Source of the DNA: a virus
IMG/VR virus record: IMGVR_UViG_3300043395_002850
Location: 1 to 24,365 of that record
Reading direction: 5' to 3' (one strand)
DNA: 24,365 nucleotides
Below are positions 4,819 through 24,365 of the stretch, in pieces. Below the pieces are notes generated by a model. That model saw only the letters and a list, made by a program, of their open reading frames with translations. It did no database searches and was not told the origin of the DNA. Numbering within the stretch: position 1 is the stretch's first letter; every line of letters begins with the position of its first letter. A program made the position numbers and the translations under genes.

Positions 4819-5619
4819 TCAAGCCCCCCTATCCATAGAAATGGTTAAGGGACGCCCACCGGGGTAGTGCTCAAAGAAAAACTGCTGCGTCTTCTGCGCC
4901 ATAACTCCTGCCTGCATGGCGAGGTCAGCGCCGTCAAGGCTCACAATCTGAGCTTCTTGGCCTTGATCAGTGTCTGGATCGTAAATAGCAATGGCGCAAT
5001 GCGCCTCACTGATCTCGATGCCATACATTTGCTCAATAGCCTGGGAATAAGCTCCGAGCTGCATCCGGTAGTCACCTAGTTGCGTGTCGGGCTTTTGCTT
5101 GAAGCTGGTCTTCCAATCGAGCAGCGCCGTGTTGCCATTGGCCATAGTGGCCAGCATATCGAAGGTGCCGGAGTAGCCAGTTTCAGTGGAGGGGCAGTAC
5201 CAGGCGATGGCACTTTCCACTAACAGAGGGCTGGCTATGCCTGTGAGGAAGTTGGCAATGCTGTCGAAATAGGGAACAAACAATGGATGGGAATCCAAAT
5301 GGCAGTTAATGTCTTCGCCGTTCCAGAAATCTTCTAGGACGCCATGAAGCCAATTGCCACGTTCTACAGCAGAGCGTGTGCGGCGATTTGCTTCTTCATC
5401 CCCGACTTTCTTTCGCCAGTTCATGAGCGCCGCAATCTTGCCAGGCGGCGAACACGCGCTCGCAATAGTCGTCACAGAGGGCAAAACAATGCCTTCTGGG
5501 GCATTCGGAAAATCGTTTAAGACGTAATAACGACGGCGATTGATCTGCAGTCGATTGGGTTCGTACCGAGGAAGAGAAGGCATCGAAAGGGCGTCGAGAC
5601 ATAGGTCGTAGCAAGGCAC
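4819..5619 (-). CDS. RecB/Cas4-like PD-(D/E)XK exonuclease
   Basis: 266 residues from a GTG at 5619. An ATG 12 codons later is possible, but the GTG overlaps the previous stop (TAGTG), indicating coupling. Motifs in order: ERGNWLHGVLEDF (86-98, helix with His), VESAIAW with Glu135, GTFDML (Asp154), LLDWKTS (Asp168, Lys170) and QLGAYSQAIEQ (187-197), which is the full RecB-nuclease series. Such phage exonucleases resect double-stranded ends to give the 3' tails used by an annealing protein, here the DUF1071 gene at 6944-7894. The set resembles lambda exo/beta pairs. No cysteine cluster for an iron-sulphur site as in Cas4 is seen. Confidence 0.85.
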   Translation of the reverse strand: MPCYDLCLDALSMPSLPRYEPNRLQINRRRYYVLNDFPNAPEGIVLPSVTTIASACSPPGKIAALMNWRKKVGDEEANRRTRSAVERGNWLHGVLEDFWNGEDINCHLDSHPLFVPYFDSIANFLTGIASPLLVESAIAWYCPSTETGYSGTFDMLATMANGNTALLDWKTSFKQKPDTQLGDYRMQLGAYSQAIEQMYGIEISEAHCAIAIYDPDTDQGQEAQIVSLDGADLAMQAGVMAQKTQQFFFEHYPGGRPLTISMDRGA

Positions 5620-5759
5620 TATTTTTCGTTCATATCCCAGAAATAATCGCAGCCTTCTTCAGTGAATGGCGGCGGTCCGAAATAGCTTTGGAAGCGTTCA
5701 GGAGGTGCCATAAAGCGCCAGCAATCTTCTTTGACAGGGCAGTTGTGGCCCGAACACAT
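5619..5759 (-). CDS. Small cysteine-rich protein
   Basis: 46 residues: starts MCSGHNCPVKEDCWRFM, then APPERFQSYFGPPPFTEE, then GCDYFWDMNEK. Cysteines at 2, 7, 13 and 37 with a neighbouring His could hold a zinc ion. The stop TAG shares its G with the GTG start of the exonuclease gene (TAGTG), strong evidence for coupled translation and for the reality of this short ORF. The homing-type HNH gene ends 8 bases upstream. Family and function not recognised; a small partner of the exonuclease is possible. Confidence 0.6.
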   Translation of the reverse strand: MCSGHNCPVKEDCWRFMAPPERFQSYFGPPPFTEEGCDYFWDMNEK

Positions 5760-5766
5760 TGCAATG

Positions 5767-6396
5767 TCAGGCAATTTTTTGCTCCTTTAAGAGCTGGGGG
5801 ACAAGGCGAATACGCATTTTTGTATCAATACCAAGCTTGTTTTGGTGGCAAGATACATGCATGGGATATCCGCAATATCCTGTAATTAGACAGGCATATT
5901 TATAGCGAAAGCTTTCTTTTGTGCCTGCTGTTTGACACTGCCTCCAATGGCCAGATTCGACATTTTTCTTTCCGGCGATTGATCCTCCAATTTTTCCCGC
6001 GTTTGAATATTGCTCAAAAGATAATGCTTGACCACCCTTTGATCCGGCCTTCTTGTTTTTAATAGTCATCCATTTATGAAACAAATCCAACAATTCTGGC
6101 CAGTCATGCTCTATAAACACTTGCTCCCAGCTCCAAATACAAGGGTGATTCATAACACAAGACTGGATCACTCCATGAGCCGCATGTTGAGATGTGGTTA
6201 ATTTGACTGTTTCCGTCCCGCCAAAGCACTTGGGCGTCGGGTGGTGCGCATTATGCAGCAAACTTGGATCAAGCCCAATTGATTTATTATGCTCAAGGCA
6301 TTTTGATGTGAAAAAATTTAAATCATCAATTGTCGGCATTGTTTTGTTTTGAATCCATTCCAGCTCGGACAAGATTACAGGAGTGAGCGATGTCAT
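5767..6396 (-). CDS. HNH homing-type endonuclease with Gly-rich DNA-binding tail
   Basis: 209 residues from the ATG at 6396. A TTG at 6435 and an ATG at 6339 are alternatives; none has a good SD. The nuclease core is LLHNAHHPTPKCFGGTETV then LTTSQHAAHGV, the H-H-P-x-P-x-GG...L-x(4)-H-x(2)-H pattern of a group of HNH homing endonucleases. Behind it, GSKGGQALSFEQYSNAGKIGG and SIAGKKNVESGHWRQ are Gly/Ser/Lys repeats like the NUMOD-type binding modules of these enzymes. It is inserted in the recombination operon, between the gene ending at 6326 (overlapped) and the Cys-rich gene, as expected of an intruding free-standing mobile gene. Confidence 0.7.
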   Translation of the reverse strand: MTSLTPVILSELEWIQNKTMPTIDDLNFFTSKCLEHNKSIGLDPSLLHNAHHPTPKCFGGTETVKLTTSQHAAHGVIQSCVMNHPCIWSWEQVFIEHDWPELLDLFHKWMTIKNKKAGSKGGQALSFEQYSNAGKIGGSIAGKKNVESGHWRQCQTAGTKESFRYKYACLITGYCGYPMHVSCHQNKLGIDTKMRIRLVPQLLKEQKIA

Positions 6397-6574
6397 AGAA
6401 AAATTGACAGGTGTCTGTTTTGGAGTGCAAGGCAAGTTGTCCGCCTAGCATTGAATCTGCCACCGTGGCTAAAACAGCAGCGATACGCCGATCACTACTA
6501 AGCGAATCATCAGGAAAGCTCCAAAATGCCTCATGACAGGAATCAAGCAATGAACGACGATTTTCCGCCATCTT
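6326..6574 (-). CDS. Hypothetical protein, 3' end overlapped by the HNH gene
   Basis: 82 residues from the ATG at 6574: a helical protein with MAENRRSLLDSCHEAFWSFP, SSDRRIAAVLATVADSMLGG, then a Cys- and Asn-containing end. The frame continues upstream to 6676, but that part is antisense-free overlap with the previous gene and looks like noise. It overlaps the preceding gene by 32 bases and the homing endonuclease by about 70. The last 20 residues may have been replaced when the HNH gene arrived. No family recognised. Confidence 0.5.
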   Translation of the reverse strand, partial: KMAENRRSLLDSCHEAFWSFPDDSLSSDRRIAAVLATVADSMLGGQLALHSKTDTCQFFYDIAHSCNLVRAGMDSKQNNADN

Positions 6575-6755
6575 TTTGAAGCTCGTAATATTCATCTGCT
6601 GCTTGTTGAAAGCAATCAGCAACAGTGGCTTCAGTGAAGCCAGCAGAAAGAAGAAACTGCTTGAAATGAACAACAATGGATGGGCAAAATATTCCAGAGA
6701 AGGAATAGTTTACTTGCACACTGCCTTCATCCAGTTTGAATGAATAGTTGCTCAT
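6543..6755 (-). CDS. Hypothetical protein, coupled to a small membrane protein
   Basis: 70 residues from the ATG at 6755. The frame is open to an ATG at 6791, but the start at 6755 overlaps the stop of the preceding ORF as ATGA, which decides it. Beta strands at the N-terminus (YSFKLDEGSVQVNYSFSG) are followed by two helices (VVHFKQFLLSAGF, VADCFQQAADEYYELQK). Not recognised. It lies between the annealing-protein gene and the exonuclease in the same transcription direction. Confidence 0.6.
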   Translation of the reverse strand: MSNYSFKLDEGSVQVNYSFSGIFCPSIVVHFKQFLLSAGFTEATVADCFQQAADEYYELQKDGGKSSFIA

Positions 6756-15061: not shown

Positions 15062-15106
15062 AATCGGCTGGTCTTGTATAGCCTACTGTCGGCTGACCTT
15101 GTATAG
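15062..15106 (+). repeat. Two copies of the TCGGCT-TTGTATA repeat
   Basis: TCGGCT-GGTC-TTGTATA (15064-15080) and TCGGCT-GACC-TTGTATA (15089-15105), 25 bases apart. The same motif recurs as three copies at 20725, 20757 and 20788. Here it lies directly upstream of the minus gene starting at 15057. Confidence 0.7.
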
Positions 15107-15235
15107 GCACAAAGAAAGGAGGACTTTCGCCCTCCCTTCCTTGTGCAGCCTCCGATACCCAACAACAACTAGGGGAAATCTCCTCGCCTAGAAGGGAAGT
15201 GTGCCTCTCAGGAGAATGACTAGCTCCCTGGCAAA

Positions 15236-15265
15236 GCCATACAGCATTGCCCACACTTCCGTCAA
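15236..15265 (-). promoter_or_regulatory. Possible minus-strand promoter
   Basis: On the minus strand TTGACG (15265-15260), 18 bases, TATGGC (15241-15236). It points toward the gene at 15057. The rest of 15107-15411 holds no convincing gene. Confidence 0.35.
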
Positions 15266-15367
15266 GTGTTCACCCTCACGGCCCGCCTTGCGACAGGAGA
15301 AGCAATTAAGCCTCTAGAACCGACTGCTCCATAAGCATAGCATCCCATGACACCCCCGGCAGTTCCC

Positions 15368-19437: not shown

Positions 19438-19737
19438 ATGCTTACTATTGCCACTTTTCAAGACAACGGCCCGTATTTCCCTCCCAGCAAGGGCCGCTAC
19501 CAGGCGGCCCGTCTGAGAGACCTGCTATTTCACGTGAGGCTCGCTATGGAGGACAGGGAGGACACTATTGCCATCTTTGACCAGCAAGGCTGCTGCAAAG
19601 GCCTCTGGAGGCGCGATCTGGAGGGGCATGTGGATAGTGCTGGTGATGCCATCATTGACCATGAAGGCTATGAACTGATGCGCCCTGATACCAAGGAGCA
19701 ATGGCTGTTCAATCGCCTGCAGGAGCAGTTCAAATGA
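19438..19737 (+). CDS. Hypothetical protein
   Basis: 99 residues from the ATG at 19438: MLTIATFQDNGPYFPPSKGR, helix YQAARLRDLLFHVRLAMED, strand EDTIAIFDQQGCCKGLWRRD, LEGHVDSAGDAIIDHEGYEL, MRPDTKEQWLFNRLQEQFK. A GGGCCGC palindrome encodes KGRYQAA at its N-terminus. An alpha/beta domain without recognised motifs. The stop overlaps the next ATG as ATGA. Confidence 0.6.
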   Translation: MLTIATFQDNGPYFPPSKGRYQAARLRDLLFHVRLAMEDREDTIAIFDQQGCCKGLWRRDLEGHVDSAGDAIIDHEGYELMRPDTKEQWLFNRLQEQFK

Positions 19738-19892
19738 TTCTCGTGGACTTTTTCTCCGAAGATTGCTGTAAAGGCACTGAATTGGTGGAAGGCTGGTATT
19801 TCTATTCTGATGATGATGAAAGCTTTGTAGGAGGACCGTTTGCCAGCGAAGAAGCCGCCCTAAAGGCGGCTTTTGATGGTCATGGTTGGTAG
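19734..19892 (+). CDS. Small acidic protein, ATGA-coupled
   Basis: 52 residues from the ATG at 19734 in an ATGA overlap: MILVDFFSEDCCKGTELVEG, WYFYSDDDESFVGGPFASEE, AALKAAFDGHGW. Acidic and aromatic, with CC near the N-terminus as in the preceding protein (QQGCCKGLW versus EDCCKGTEL), which might reflect a duplicated segment. The last 13 codons form the terminator at 19854. Family unknown. Confidence 0.55.
   Translation: MILVDFFSEDCCKGTELVEGWYFYSDDDESFVGGPFASEEAALKAAFDGHGW
19854..19874 (+). terminator. Terminator inside the 3' codons of the 19734 gene
   Basis: Stem GCCGCC / GGCGGC, loop CTAAA, TTTT. It lies wholly within the reading frame, ending 18 bases before the stop codon's end. Confidence 0.65.
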
Positions 19893-19976
19893 GGAAAATA
19901 ATTGCTAGCATGGCGAAACATCGCGAGATGCCAGTCTCGTGACGTTTCTAACCACTACCAAAGGAGCAGTTTGGCC

Positions 19977-20681
19977 ATGGCTGAATACAAGCATAGCAGC
20001 GTGCCTGCAGGGTTTAAGGAGATCCCTGGGTATGACGGACGCTATTTCATCAATGAGAAGGGCGAGGTGTGGAGCGCCTTTAAAAAGGGATTGATGAGCC
20101 CACAAACAGACGCTACTCATCCCTATCCATGGGTGTTATTAAGAGAAAATGGCAGATCCCAGCCTCGTACTGTCTATTATTTAATGCGTCTCACTTGGAT
20201 GCCTTCTGCGCCCGGCAAAGTTGGAAATAAGAGGGGAGAATGGTGCGTTAATCATGTTGACGGCAACAAGCTTAATAGTCATATCAGTAATCTTGAATGG
20301 ACAACAGCAGAAGACAATGTGAGGCACGCTTGGGATACTGGCTTGAATATGACGACCACAGGTGAAAACGCCAAAAACGCTAAGTTTACCTCTGATCAAG
20401 TGAGGAGAATCCGTCTGCGATTAATCAATGGGGAGAAAGTAAAGGCGATTGCAAAAGAATTCAACGCTGGAGAGTCTTTGATCAAGAAAATTCAGCAATT
20501 TGTTTCTTGGAAGCATCAAGATCATGACCTGGTAGATGGCTTGATGAAAGTCTGTTCTTCGCAATGGCTTCGTGTAATGAAAACAAAACTTGAAACGGGG
20601 GAGCGAATGGAAGAATGTTGCAATAGGGTTTCTCGTGGCCGCACTAAATGGAGTAGGGAATCGCTAGCGGCTTATCTATAG
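19977..20681 (+). CDS. NUMOD4/HNH homing endonuclease (I-HmuI-like)
   Basis: 234 residues from the ATG at 19977, preceded by AAAGGAG, one of few true SD sites here (an open TTG frame from 19902 is rejected). NUMOD4 at 12-33: GFKEIPGYDGRYFINEKGEV. HNH at 90-120: CVNHVDGNKLNSHISNLEW with His93, Asp95, Asn97 and Asn105, then TTAEDNVRHAWDTG. A C-terminal helix-turn-helix (TSDQVRRIRLRL, VKAIAKEFNAGES) gives specificity. This is the standard layout of free-standing phage homing enzymes that cut one strand or make staggered breaks. Its last codons form the first unit of a downstream tandem-repeat array, so it may have inserted beside or into that array. Confidence 0.88.
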   Translation: MAEYKHSSVPAGFKEIPGYDGRYFINEKGEVWSAFKKGLMSPQTDATHPYPWVLLRENGRSQPRTVYYLMRLTWMPSAPGKVGNKRGEWCVNHVDGNKLNSHISNLEWTTAEDNVRHAWDTGLNMTTTGENAKNAKFTSDQVRRIRLRLINGEKVKAIAKEFNAGESLIKKIQQFVSWKHQDHDLVDGLMKVCSSQWLRVMKTKLETGERMEECCNRVSRGRTKWSRESLAAYL

Positions 20682-20810
20682 AAAATCAGGACTCGCCATT
20701 GGCGTATTTATGAGAAAATCAGAATCGGCTAGCTTGGTATAATAAAAAAAACAGAATCGGCTAGCTTTGTATAGTAAAAAATTGGAATCGGCTGAGTTTG
20801 TATAATAAAT
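20658..20810 (+). repeat. Tandem array A: AATCGGCT-TTGTATAAT units, period 31-32
   Basis: Three clear units have TCGGCT at 20725, 20757 and 20788, each followed by AGC/GAG, TTTG (TTGG in the first) and TATAATA or TATAGTA. Two degenerate units with the same phase start at 20690 (GACTCGCC) and 20658 (GAATCGCTAGC), the latter within the final codons of the HNH gene. Single copies recur at 15064 and 15089. Confidence 0.75.
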
Positions 20811-20873
20811 AAACTGCAATTGTGATTGGTTGTTAATTATAATTACTTTTCAGTTTGTTATTCTTATTATTAA

Positions 20874-21147
20874 TTAATTGCATTTTGCGGCAATAACAAT
20901 AAAAAATTAATCACACTTCCTGGCAGTTATTAATAACAATTAATTGCACTTTGCCGATAATAACAATTAACAATTAATTGCACTTTGAAGCTATAAAGAA
21001 TAGGGAATTAATCACACTTTTTCGATGTAAAGAATAAAGAATTAATTGCACCTTGTCATTGTTAACAATAAAGAATTGATCGCATCTCGTGAGAGTAAAG
21101 AATAAAGAATTAATCCGCGCTTGAAAGTATAAAGAATAAAGAATTGG
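20874..21147 (+). repeat. Tandem array B: eight to nine AT-rich 33-34 bp units
   Basis: Unit starts are at 20874, 20907, 20940, 20974, 21008, 21042, 21076, 21110 and a truncated 21144: spacings 33, 33, then 34 six times. Each unit has TTAATTGCACTTTG (variants TTAATCACAC, TTGATCGCAT, TTAATCCGCG), a variable middle, then AATAACAA or AAAGAATAAAGAA. Later units are more alike than early ones. Period 34 is not a multiple of 3, so it is not a coding repeat. Confidence 0.85.
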
Positions 21148-21541
21148 GCGGCTGCCGCGCCTACCATGCTTCCTGTGCTTCTGTCGGTATCCGTTGCTAC
21201 ATTCTGGCGTTTTGTGACATGCCGTCACAATCCGGCGATTCTCACCCGTCCTATGGTATGGGCGTCGATTGTTGCGGATTGTTGCAGCGGCTGTTGACTG
21301 ATGGGCACTTTGCATGGTATTTCGCGCGGGCGTGTGCGCGTTTCATTTCTTTCTGAAAGCATCCCTTGCCAGTAGCCTCCCGCGCAGCGTGCCAACCACA
21401 GAAAGCGCCATAGGCTCCCGGAACGTGTGCCGCTTGCCCTAGTGGCCCAATCTCCGGGATTGTGTGCCGCTTGTGGCCCATACTTCTTTCAACGGCGCAA
21501 GGGAGAGATCCCGGAGCCGCTTCTCTCTCGCTTTTCAAACT
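21148..21541 (+). other. Noncoding region with operator-like palindrome and promoter
   Basis: No convincing gene in 394 bases. It contains the palindrome TTGTGAC-ATGCC-GTCACAA (21212-21230), resembling a CRP-type site but with one extra central base. There is a possible promoter TTGACT (21294-21299) with TATTTC (21318-21323, 18-base spacing). A short direct repeat GTGTGCCGCTTG occurs at 21425-21436 and 21462-21473, each followed by TGGCCCA. The transcript would lead to the gene at 21542. Confidence 0.5.
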
Positions 21542-21763
21542 ATGGCTGCCGATCTTTCCCGGTATCTGCTAATCGACGCAACCACTGGGACCGTGCTAAC
21601 TGCCGCGTCTTGCTATCTGGTGGATGACGACTCCCTAACTCCTACAGAGTGGCAACTATTCGATGAGATGACCGATTCCGAAGTTTGCGAGTTTGCAAAG
21701 TCTCGCGGCAGGAAAGTTTCGGACGTGGTGACACTACGTGCCAAACTTCCCGGTGAATCCTGA
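21542..21763 (+). CDS. Hypothetical acidic protein
   Basis: 73 residues from the ATG at 21542: MAADLSRYLLIDATTGTVLT, AASCYLVDDDSLTPTEWQLF, helix DEMTDSEVCEFAKSRGRKVS, DVVTLRAKLPGES. Two N-terminal strands and two helices. It is the first gene of a group (21542-22941) whose leaders are nearly pure CT tracts and whose bases are rich in CTTTC, different from the genes to the left. Not recognised. Confidence 0.6.
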   Translation: MAADLSRYLLIDATTGTVLTAASCYLVDDDSLTPTEWQLFDEMTDSEVCEFAKSRGRKVSDVVTLRAKLPGES

Positions 21764-21792
21764 TTCTTTCTTTCCTTTCTTTCTTTCTTTCT
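21764..21792 (+). repeat. CTTT microsatellite-like leader
   Basis: Repeated TTTC/CTTT units fill the gap between the genes ending at 21763 and starting at 21797. A similar tract fills 21996-22026. They replace an SD and may act as S1-binding unstructured leaders. Confidence 0.6.
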
Positions 21793-21796
21793 GATC

Positions 21797-21994
21797 GTGA
21801 AACTTCCCCTTTCCTACACTGTGCCCAATCAGCAGCCGCGCAACACAGCCGCCGAACTTTCCGAAACTGTAGGCGCTGAACTTATGCTTTCTGAACTGAT
21901 TGCATGGTTGCCGCACTCTACTCTTAACAGCTTTCTTTCCGACTTTGTTTGTCACCTTGAATGCGGCGACTTTGACGACATTCTGCCCGGCTGA
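21797..21994 (+). CDS. Hypothetical small protein (GTG start)
   Basis: 65 residues from a GTG at 21797: MKLPLSYTVPNQQPRNTAAE, helix LSETVGAELMLSELIAWLPH, helix STLNSFLSDFVCHLECGDFD, DILPG. Largely helical with an acidic C-terminus. No ATG is available; the GTG lies at the expected distance after the CT tract. Family unknown. Confidence 0.55.
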   Translation: MKLPLSYTVPNQQPRNTAAELSETVGAELMLSELIAWLPHSTLNSFLSDFVCHLECGDFDDILPG

Positions 21995-22032
21995 TTGTTT
22001 CTTTCTTTCCGTTCCTTCCTTTCTTTCAAACG

Positions 22033-22716
22033 ATGCAACTTTCTAAGCTTTCCTTTCATCTCAAGGCAAAGTCTGGCAACGCCAAGACTGGCCCAATGGC
22101 AGTATCAACGTCGGCAAAGTCTACATGCTCGCCAACTTGCCCTTTCTTAGATAATGGCTGCTACGCTACATCTGGCCCCTTGAATCTACACTGGCTCAAA
22201 GTTTCAAGCGGCGAACGTGGCACAAGTTTTGCAACTTTCCTTTCTAAGTTGCAAGAACTGCCACAAGGTTCCGCTTTCAGACATAACCAGGCTGGTGACA
22301 TACCACACAATCAAGGCCGCATCTCTGAAACTTTCATCCGCAAGATGATCGTGGCCGTTAAGCATCTCCGAGCTTACACTTACACTCACCATAGCCTCAA
22401 AGTTGGCGAGAATCTCTCTCTAATTAGAAAGGCTAATCGTGCCGGTTTCACTATCAACGTTTCTTGTGAAAGTGAGGCGCAAGTTGATGATGCAATCGCG
22501 CACGATCTGCCTGCCGTTATGGTGGCAAAGTCTGATGAGAAGCGCGTCACTTGGCACACCGAAGGCGGGAACGTTGTTATAGTTTGCCCCGCACAACGTA
22601 GCGATACTGTAACTTGCTCAGATTGTATGCTATGTCATAAGAGAGGCAAGAAAGTGGCGATAGCTTTCCTGGCCCATGGCACAAGCAAGAAGAAAGCAGA
22701 AGCCCATCTTTCCTAA
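22033..22716 (+). CDS. DUF7227-like conserved phage protein with two Cys clusters
   Basis: 227 residues. The sequence has the hallmarks of an uncharacterised family I know as DUF7227: NAKTGPMAVSTSAKSTCSPT, CPFLDNGCYA (Cys32, 36, 43), FRHNQAGDIPHNQG (82-95), AYTYTHHSLK (114-123), ANRAGFTINVSCESEAQVDD, VVIVCPAQ (Cys185) and TCSDCMLC (Cys195, 198, 201), ending AFLAHG. Cysteine clusters at both ends and conserved His/Asp motifs look like a metal or iron-sulphur enzyme, but no reaction is known. It occurs in phages and plasmids. Here it follows a CT-rich leader and is the largest protein of its group. Confidence 0.7.
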   Translation: MQLSKLSFHLKAKSGNAKTGPMAVSTSAKSTCSPTCPFLDNGCYATSGPLNLHWLKVSSGERGTSFATFLSKLQELPQGSAFRHNQAGDIPHNQGRISETFIRKMIVAVKHLRAYTYTHHSLKVGENLSLIRKANRAGFTINVSCESEAQVDDAIAHDLPAVMVAKSDEKRVTWHTEGGNVVIVCPAQRSDTVTCSDCMLCHKRGKKVAIAFLAHGTSKKKAEAHLS

Positions 22717-22749
22717 GTTCTTCTATTCTTTCCATCGCAATCTTTCCCC

Positions 22750-22941
22750 GTGTTCTACATCACCGAAACCGACTTTGGCCACACTTTCAATGCCGAAACT
22801 TTCCACACTTTTGATGATGCCTGCGACTTCCTGAATCTATTAGAAACCGAGCAGGACCGCGCTTATAGTTTCTCTCGTGAACTTTCCATCGTTGAACTTA
22901 AGCAACAGATTCAAGACTTCCTAGAAGAAAGTGAAGATTGA
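22750..22941 (+). CDS. Hypothetical acidic protein (GTG start)
   Basis: 63 residues from a GTG at 22750: MFYITETDFGHTFNAETFHT, helix FDDACDFLNLLETEQDRAYS, strand FSRELSIVEL, helix KQQIQDFLEESED. Acidic, alpha/beta. A CT-rich leader without SD precedes it. A strong hairpin terminator follows 15 bases after the stop. Not recognised. Confidence 0.55.
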   Translation: MFYITETDFGHTFNAETFHTFDDACDFLNLLETEQDRAYSFSRELSIVELKQQIQDFLEESED

Positions 22942-23009: not shown

Positions 23010-23297
23010 TTTGCCGTGTCAGGATGGCGACCGTAGGTAGGTCTGACAGTGAGGCTAGGACTGGCGATCCTGTAGGGATAAGGGATTAACTTTTTCCACA
23101 GGGCTGTGGAAAACTAATCCCGACCTTCCAACTCGGGATTAACTTTTGCAACAATCCGCCGTGTAACGTATTGTGACAAACGCTTGACTTTTGAGCCGTG
23201 GCGCGGTAACCCGGCTGTTTTTGATTGGGGGGCTGCGGTATACGCTCCGAAAAGTGGAGCCAATTTTCATCCCCTTTTTTCGTCTAAGTATTTATAC
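23010..23297. other. Noncoding region with DnaA-box-like inverted repeat
   Basis: No gene seen. An imperfect 18-20 bp inverted repeat at 23082-23121 reads GGGATTAACTTTTTCCACAG, GG, CTGTGGAAAACTAATCCC, so each arm holds TTTTCCACA, a known bacterial and cyanobacterial DnaA-box form. GGGATTAACTTTT recurs directly at 23135-23147. A hairpin GCTCC/GGAGC follows near 23246-23262. Candidate origin or operator. Confidence 0.55.
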
Positions 23298-23813: not shown

Positions 23814-23971
23814 AGCTTATACGCTGACAATGCAGTTGCCATACGCTGAAAGCAAGCCGTAGGCGCCGCTTGAAGCGTTTCTAGCAATAGGCAAGACCAA
23901 TGGAGACGGCCCAAGCCGTCGTAATGACGCACAAAATCGCGCATTTTCCTTTCCATCGTTTTTAGCAAGAA

Positions 23972-23991
23972 GGCGGCCCTCAAAGGCCGCC
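23972..23991. repeat. GGCGGCC hairpin
   Basis: GGCGGCC-CTCAAA-GGCCGCC, perfect 7-bp stem. There is no T tract after it on the plus strand; on the minus strand TTCTTGC follows. It is one of a family of GGCCGC palindromes in the window. Confidence 0.5.
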
Positions 23992-24054
23992 GCTCAAGCT
24001 TTTAAAGATAGAAAAAGCAATTTTTAAGCCCTGTCTGGCACCAAGCACATTTTG

Positions 24055-24091
24055 GGCGACTCATTACTTAGGAACTGAGTTAGCCTTTTTT
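24055..24091 (+). terminator. Terminator-like hairpin
   Basis: GGC-g-ACTCA pairs with TGAGT-ta-GCC across a 12-base loop, followed by TTTTTT. The stem has an internal loop. Confidence 0.5.
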
Positions 24092-24365
24092 GTATTTCGC
24101 CCCTCGTTGTGAAAGCTCCGTCCCTTTTGGGGGACTGCGCGGAGGAGAGCGTCGGGGCTTATCTAGCTTTTTTTTGTTGATCGTTCCGCGCTTGGGGCGC
24201 TTCACTAGCTAGAGACGCTCGGGAGGGGCTAAGCAAGAAGCTGAGTGATTTTTGACGGCACCTTGCCTACGGCTATCGTATCTCGGCCTGTGGCTCAAAT
24301 GTGGCTTTTTCCGTATCATGGCGATACAAAAGCTTAAAAATCTTCATAATCTCTTAAGGATTCAT
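24092..24365. other. Noncoding hairpin-rich right edge
   Basis: No ORF of useful length on either strand. It contains a nested hairpin, CTCCG-TCCC-TTTT-GGGGGA-GCGGAG (about 24115-24145), a T8 run (24170-24177), and several GGGGC/GCGC-rich short inverted repeats. The last bases, AAGGATTCAT, could be the SD and first bases of a gene beyond the window; this cannot be judged here. Confidence 0.4.

Follow-up and report, generated by a model that had tools for sequence, protein, structure and literature searches.

The question raised by this locus is what role an AT-rich tandem array of 33-34 bp units plays in the noncoding DNA of a virus. An earlier note, made from the sequence alone, had offered three roles, namely replication-origin iterons, a multi-site operator and a partition-like site. 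The array is located in record IMGVR_UViG_3300043395_002850, a single contig of 24.4 kb, which was analyzed over its entire length (24,365 nucleotides, hereafter the window). In megablast, S-CBS4 was the sole match of the window, with the DNA match located at its left end. The window and S-CBS4 displayed the same gene order (lysozyme, HNH, ThyX, dCTP deaminase, exonuclease, Sak, primase-helicase and DPBB lipoprotein). Judged by these sequence features, the window represents part of an uncultivated S-CBS4-like Synechococcus siphophage, and the host, by extension from S-CBS4, would be a picocyanobacterium. While the gene order left of the repeat array is shared with S-CBS4 (NC_016766), the S-CBS4 record ends inside the gene just before the anchor gene described below, and the control region is therefore absent from the published isolate genome. 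All of the relatives having the control region are uncultivated contigs.

The control region spans about 20.68-21.54 kb, from the HNH gene to the DUF7227 operon. Its left border in the relatives is the stop codon of an anchor gene (MILVDFFSEDCC...FDGHGW; 19734..19892, plus strand), which was identified by tblastn at 84 loci representing 46 distinct regions. Over 46 relatives the order was fixed: anchor gene, a first array (array A), one or more variable arrays, a sigma-70-type promoter and a DUF7227/GP88-like operon. In the window, the anchor gene is separated from array A by an inserted gene, which encodes an HNH endonuclease with a NUMOD4-like N-terminus (19977..20681, plus strand; PHROG 59/959 HNH endonuclease, Pfam HNH_3). 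Many relatives have no such HNH gene, and in these array A starts directly after the anchor stop. In the close relative G023, the HNH N-terminus is fused directly to the C-terminal part of the GP88-like gene (about 20917-21187), so that this relative lacks the arrays, the promoter and the greater part of the operon; this junction may be a real deletion or a chimeric assembly. A block without a recognised gene at the right end of the window (23834-24365) was 75-97% identical in G023-G026.

The repeat array in question (array B; 20872..21141, plus strand) consists of eight units of 33-34 bp with the consensus AATTRATYRCAYYTTG-N7-AAAGAATAAAG. The units start at 20872, 20905, 20938, 20972, 21006, 21040, 21074 and 21108, unit 1 being counted without its 4-base lead, and the steps are 33, 33 and then five times 34. 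The earlier note had given eight to nine units at 20874-21147; the count of eight stood, while the extent and the steps were recomputed as above. Array B was recovered both by TRF and by an independent repeat search. Its self-match at period 34 was 0.63, compared with a maximum of 0.438 in 2000 dinucleotide shuffles, taken over all periods from 5 to 100. Array B is a real tandem array far above shuffled sequence, which confirms the periodicity given in the earlier note. Unit comparison likewise bore out two conserved blocks, AATTRATYRCAYYTTG and AAAGAATAAAG, separated by a variable stretch of about 7 bp. The array is noncoding and 73% AT, and lies beside the homing endonuclease gene and array A as had been described. 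No match near the gathering score was obtained with Rfam at 19800-22400.

A similarity search of 50,697 phage records returned short chance matches only. Across these records the unit thus belongs to no named phage element, as the earlier note had stated, although it is not unique to the window: five other distinct uncultivated phages carry it in 4-7 copies each (L017, 7; L014, 7; L241, 6; L240, identical to L244, 4; L059, identical to L242, 5). The window was compared unit by unit with the four closest arrays, in which units pair by position. Matching units between close relatives were mostly 82-100% identical, compared with 53-82% among the window's own units. The first, penultimate and last units were retained across relatives, and copies were gained or lost internally. 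Since matching units are more alike across phages than within the array, the units appear to be old and maintained. The earlier note had read a gradient from degenerate to near-identical units as expansion from one end. No monotonic trend of identity was found within the array, the later units being more uniform in the A-rich block only, and in relatives it is the first and last units that are stable, so that expansion from one end was not supported.

The substitutions between matching units were unevenly distributed, with 0.01 per site at positions 1-7, 0.13 at positions 8-16 (mostly at 8, 13 and 15), 0.17 at positions 17-23 and 0.036 at positions 24-34, rates that rest on 15 matching unit pairs which are non-independent. 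As would be expected of an operator, the presumed sites (0.01-0.036) were more conserved than the bases between them (0.17). This pattern indicates that array B is a maintained site of the protein-binding type and not the product of recent one-ended growth. It also bears on whether the arrays are functionless, satellite-like repeats generated by slippage and recombination. The unit family and the copy number do differ quickly among relatives, and the close relative G023 is without the region through deletion. However, substitutions in array B avoid the conserved blocks and matching units persist, tandem arrays occur in 29 tested regions, some of them as consensus regulator boxes, and G023 is also without most of the operon, if it is not a chimeric assembly. 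Neutral repeats are therefore considered very improbable.

Downstream of array B, a conserved sigma-70-type promoter (TTGACT-N18-TATTTC; 21294..21323, plus strand) begins 152 bp past the last unit. It was identified from an alignment of eight relatives and from pattern matches in relatives, whereas a generic promoter scan gave no excess over shuffles. The aligned members displayed the form TTGAC-N17/18-TATTTC, located downstream of the variable arrays wherever it could be recognised. Array B is thus adjacent to a promoter, predicted by sequence conservation, that could be controlled. The distance between array and promoter varied among relatives, by inspection roughly from 35 to 240 bp. The promoter is followed by a conserved noncoding leader (21324..21541, plus strand), which was recognised from the relatives' sequences and matched G006 in blastn over window 21267-21529, and then by the operon (21542..22941, plus strand) with ORFs at 21542-21763, 21797-21994, 22033-22716 (the DUF7227 gene; Pfam DUF7227, E 3e-78) and 22750-22941. 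The operons of relatives encode either DUF7227 or a different Cys-cluster protein, which by inspection is probably related to DUF7227.

The DUF7227 protein was rejected as the binder of array B, since phages whose arrays differ have DUF7227 proteins that are 91-100% identical. The idea that an array generally accompanies DUF7227 was also rejected: no comparable array was found near DUF7227 in S-SRP01, P-GSP1 and PAK_P1, while one 25-bp array was found in P-SSP2 and a DnaA-box cluster in DSL-LC03. In DSL-LC03 (L263), an unrelated cyanomyophage, seven TTTTCCACA-type DnaA boxes were located upstream of DUF7227 at 1726-2182. The DUF7227/GP88-like operons further displayed a one-strand enrichment of lineage-specific short words, in leaders and coding sequence alike. 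The word was CTTTC in the window (21330-22941) and in G013 (5055-6640), with 33 seen versus 3 expected, GGCCC/CCCTG in G024 and CAAACA/ACATTC in G029. In the window, start codons are preceded by CU-rich leaders with no obvious Shine-Dalgarno sequence.

Among the three roles offered before, a multi-site operator fits best. The reading of array B as a multi-site operator regulating the promoter at 21294-21323 is favored by the promoter just downstream, by a substitution pattern like that of binding sites, and by the boxes of known regulators that relatives have in this slot; we hold it with even confidence. Each 34-bp unit would serve as one recognition site (AATTRATYRCAYYTTG plus the A-rich block) of a DNA-binding protein with sequence specificity, several copies of which could assemble into a nucleoprotein complex on the array and regulate transcription of the DUF7227 operon from the sigma-70-type promoter. 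We infer protein binding and promoter regulation, and equally the identity of any regulator and the direction of its effect, repression or activation, from sequence patterns. Several observations speak against an operator. Among them, the 34-bp unit has no occurrence in the window outside array B, whereas a dedicated regulator often has operators at more than one place, and the variable distance between array and promoter is unlike a classical activator site.

Array A (20715..20813, plus strand; TRF and PWM) contains three CGGCTAGCTTTGTAT-type sites spaced 31-32 bp apart, i.e., three helical turns, with PWM matches in the window at 20724, 20756 and 20787. The motif, CCGGCTAG-N4-GTAT, is usually present in 3-4 copies in relatives. 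A total of 106 sites were detected by PWM in the control regions, spaced mainly 21, 23 or 31 bp apart; in a minority of control regions array A is too divergent for the search pattern. Many of the related genomes have the motif at one or two further noncoding loci as well. In the window, one such locus (15063..15106, plus strand), found by regex search, has two array-A-type sites and lies upstream of a minus-strand gene, and the equivalent gap contained PWM matches in G009, G014, G023, G024, G029 and S-CBS4. In 201 host-family genomes the motif was essentially absent, with 1 match. Because it recurs in the phages and is nearly absent from the hosts, array A is probably an operator on which a phage-encoded regulator acts. 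It would then be a second operator, common to the whole clade and reused at the other noncoding sites. Next to the second locus, behind a terminator-like hairpin, a stretch of about 200 bp (15130-15340) resembles by eye the corresponding gap of S-CBS4 and G013, and is possibly a noncoding RNA.

The slot between array A and the promoter is occupied by different arrays in different phages. Among 29 regions with tandem arrays, about 25 sequence families were distinguished, an approximate count from automatic clustering. Boxes of known regulators were enriched in this slot over the rest of the genomes for LexA, Fur-type and Pho motifs alike. The cyanobacterial LexA box (consensus from PMC3091678) was detected 33 times in 58 kb of control regions and 4 times in 838 kb of other DNA of these phages, a 106-fold enrichment. 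Fur-type boxes were detected 16 times in control regions and 11 times in the background (about 20-fold), and tandem Pho boxes (CTTAACC with an 11-bp period; consensus from PMC1906773) 18 times versus 0 in the background (>500-fold), all of them in L050. That relative carries 18 tandem Pho-box pairs and a LexA-type box inside the Pho-box array, and L069 carries four Fur-type boxes. These boxes are motif matches, which is distinct from binding. The Fur-type motif used is the general heptamer form, from which the Anabaena FurA consensus differs (PMC4005646), and the Fur-type assignment is therefore weaker. Pho-box prediction in cyanophages has been described as unreliable without gel shifts (PMC10976474). 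Palindromes of the form TAGTACNNNNGTACTA were observed between arrays A and B (L030, L011, L109 and others), 24 in control regions and 0 in 838 kb, and fit the cyanobacterial LexA box.

The presence of such boxes at the same slot, in some relatives as large tandem arrays (L050, L069), agrees with a decoy or sensor, by which arrays of host-regulator sites would titrate or read out the regulators, the window's unit being the site of an unrecognised host protein. As a check of the method, the LexA motif was searched in 41 host-family genomes and was present in 28, well above the reversed-pattern control. However, no LexA box was found in the control region of the window, and Fur-type and Pho matches were listed for relatives and none for the window's control region. 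The 34-bp core gave 24 matches in 201 host-family genomes versus 9 for the reversed control, and five of the six inspected lie in open frames, so that the core is not the motif of a host regulon. Other relatives carry a 23-bp unit, which gave 2 matches in 41 host-family genomes, each with 2 mismatches. By these searches the 34-bp core, array A and the 23-bp unit were all rejected as host motifs, and we regard a decoy or sensor as unlikely for the window. Under the operator reading, the slot holding array B would be exchanged between phages, so that lineages would respond to different regulators: LexA, Fur-type or SphR boxes in some lineages, and probably a phage-encoded binder for the window's unit.

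Array B could instead belong to a replication origin, its units being iterons bound by an initiator and its AT-rich repeats, at 73% AT, the unwinding region. Cumulative GC skew had been proposed as a check in the earlier note. In each of 7 long relatives, its detrended minimum fell 2.0-3.7 kb downstream of the anchor gene, and its maximum about half a genome away. This switch zone contains or adjoins the arrays, the operon and a DnaA-box block, and since the control region lies inside it a replication role fits as well. DnaA boxes were present near the DUF7227 operon in the window and several relatives, besides the cluster in the unrelated cyanophage DSL-LC03. However, the minimum lay near the end of the operon, beside a DnaA-box pair and not in array B, and the strong base bias of the operon itself blurs the position, so that GC skew does not separate array B from the DnaA block. 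This inverted pair (TTTTCCACA-gggc-TGTGGAAAA; 23092..23113) is located in a noncoding block downstream of the operon, about 2 kb downstream of array B, and, in view of the GC-skew switch in 7 genomes, is a candidate alternative origin. Also near the switch, a promoter-like TTGACT and a T-run hairpin around GCTGCGGTATACGCTCCGAAAAGTGGAGCC were observed at 23184-23280, similar by eye in relatives, and possibly represent a small RNA.

The units themselves argue further against iterons. Slot arrays were unrelated, and often GC-rich, in phages with a 93-95% identical primase-helicase, and therefore this protein is unlikely to be a unit-specific binder and was rejected as the binder of array B. Iteron units would be expected to co-vary with their initiator, and no such co-variation with the primase-helicase was found, although a different initiator may be involved. 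The period of 34 bp corresponds to 3.24 helical turns, a spacing unlike that of most iterons. An iteron origin is thus a possible reading but not the favored one, and we consider it rather improbable.

The tandem sites in a noncoding region could also form a partition (centromere-like) site or a packaging site. An integrase was found in three of the eight related contigs, suggesting that some of these phages may be temperate. However, no ParA-type ATPase (PF13614) was detected in the eight related genomes and contigs, while all 14 control genomes matched, which makes partition unlikely, and the large terminase gene of S-CBS4 is located about 5.4-6.7 kb from the start of the record and not beside the control region. 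The partition-like site is thus unsupported, and a partition or packaging role appears extremely unlikely.

Taken across the clade, the slot keeps its place and its promoter while the sites are replaced wholesale over dozens of phages, which represents an unusual form of regulatory evolution. Tentatively, and with more doubt than confidence, it may be a fast-changing slot for regulatory cassettes, in which lineages swap tandem arrays for different DNA-binding proteins, including host LexA, Fur and SphR (with DnaA boxes nearby). Replicating phage DNA would thereby titrate or sense the host's global regulators in order to control one operon, and the window's unit would be one such cassette. Provided that the LexA, Fur and Pho arrays function, these viruses would couple a single operon to the state of widespread picocyanobacteria with respect to DNA damage, iron and phosphate.

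Iteron origins such as plasmid RepA iterons, lambda ori and SPP1 oriL/oriR resemble array B in having tandem repeats beside AT-rich DNA, in a noncoding region near a GC-skew switch. In contrast to these origins, array B has no recognised linked initiator gene, its unit is replaced despite a near-identical primase-helicase, and the DnaA boxes are elsewhere. Temperate phages have control regions with multiple operators, such as lambda OR/OL and the stoperators of mycobacteriophage L5. Like these, array B under the operator reading has several site copies near a promoter, with a specificity differing among related phages. Here, 4-8 head-to-tail 34-bp units are found in one place and are not dispersed along the genome, beside arrays of other specificities. 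Phage promoters with host-regulator boxes are also known from the control of cyanophage pstS and other genes by host PhoB (PMC10976474). The window's 34-bp unit differs from these in matching no host motif tested, and whereas the cyanophage cases listed there have one or a few boxes per promoter, the relative L050 has 18 tandem pairs.
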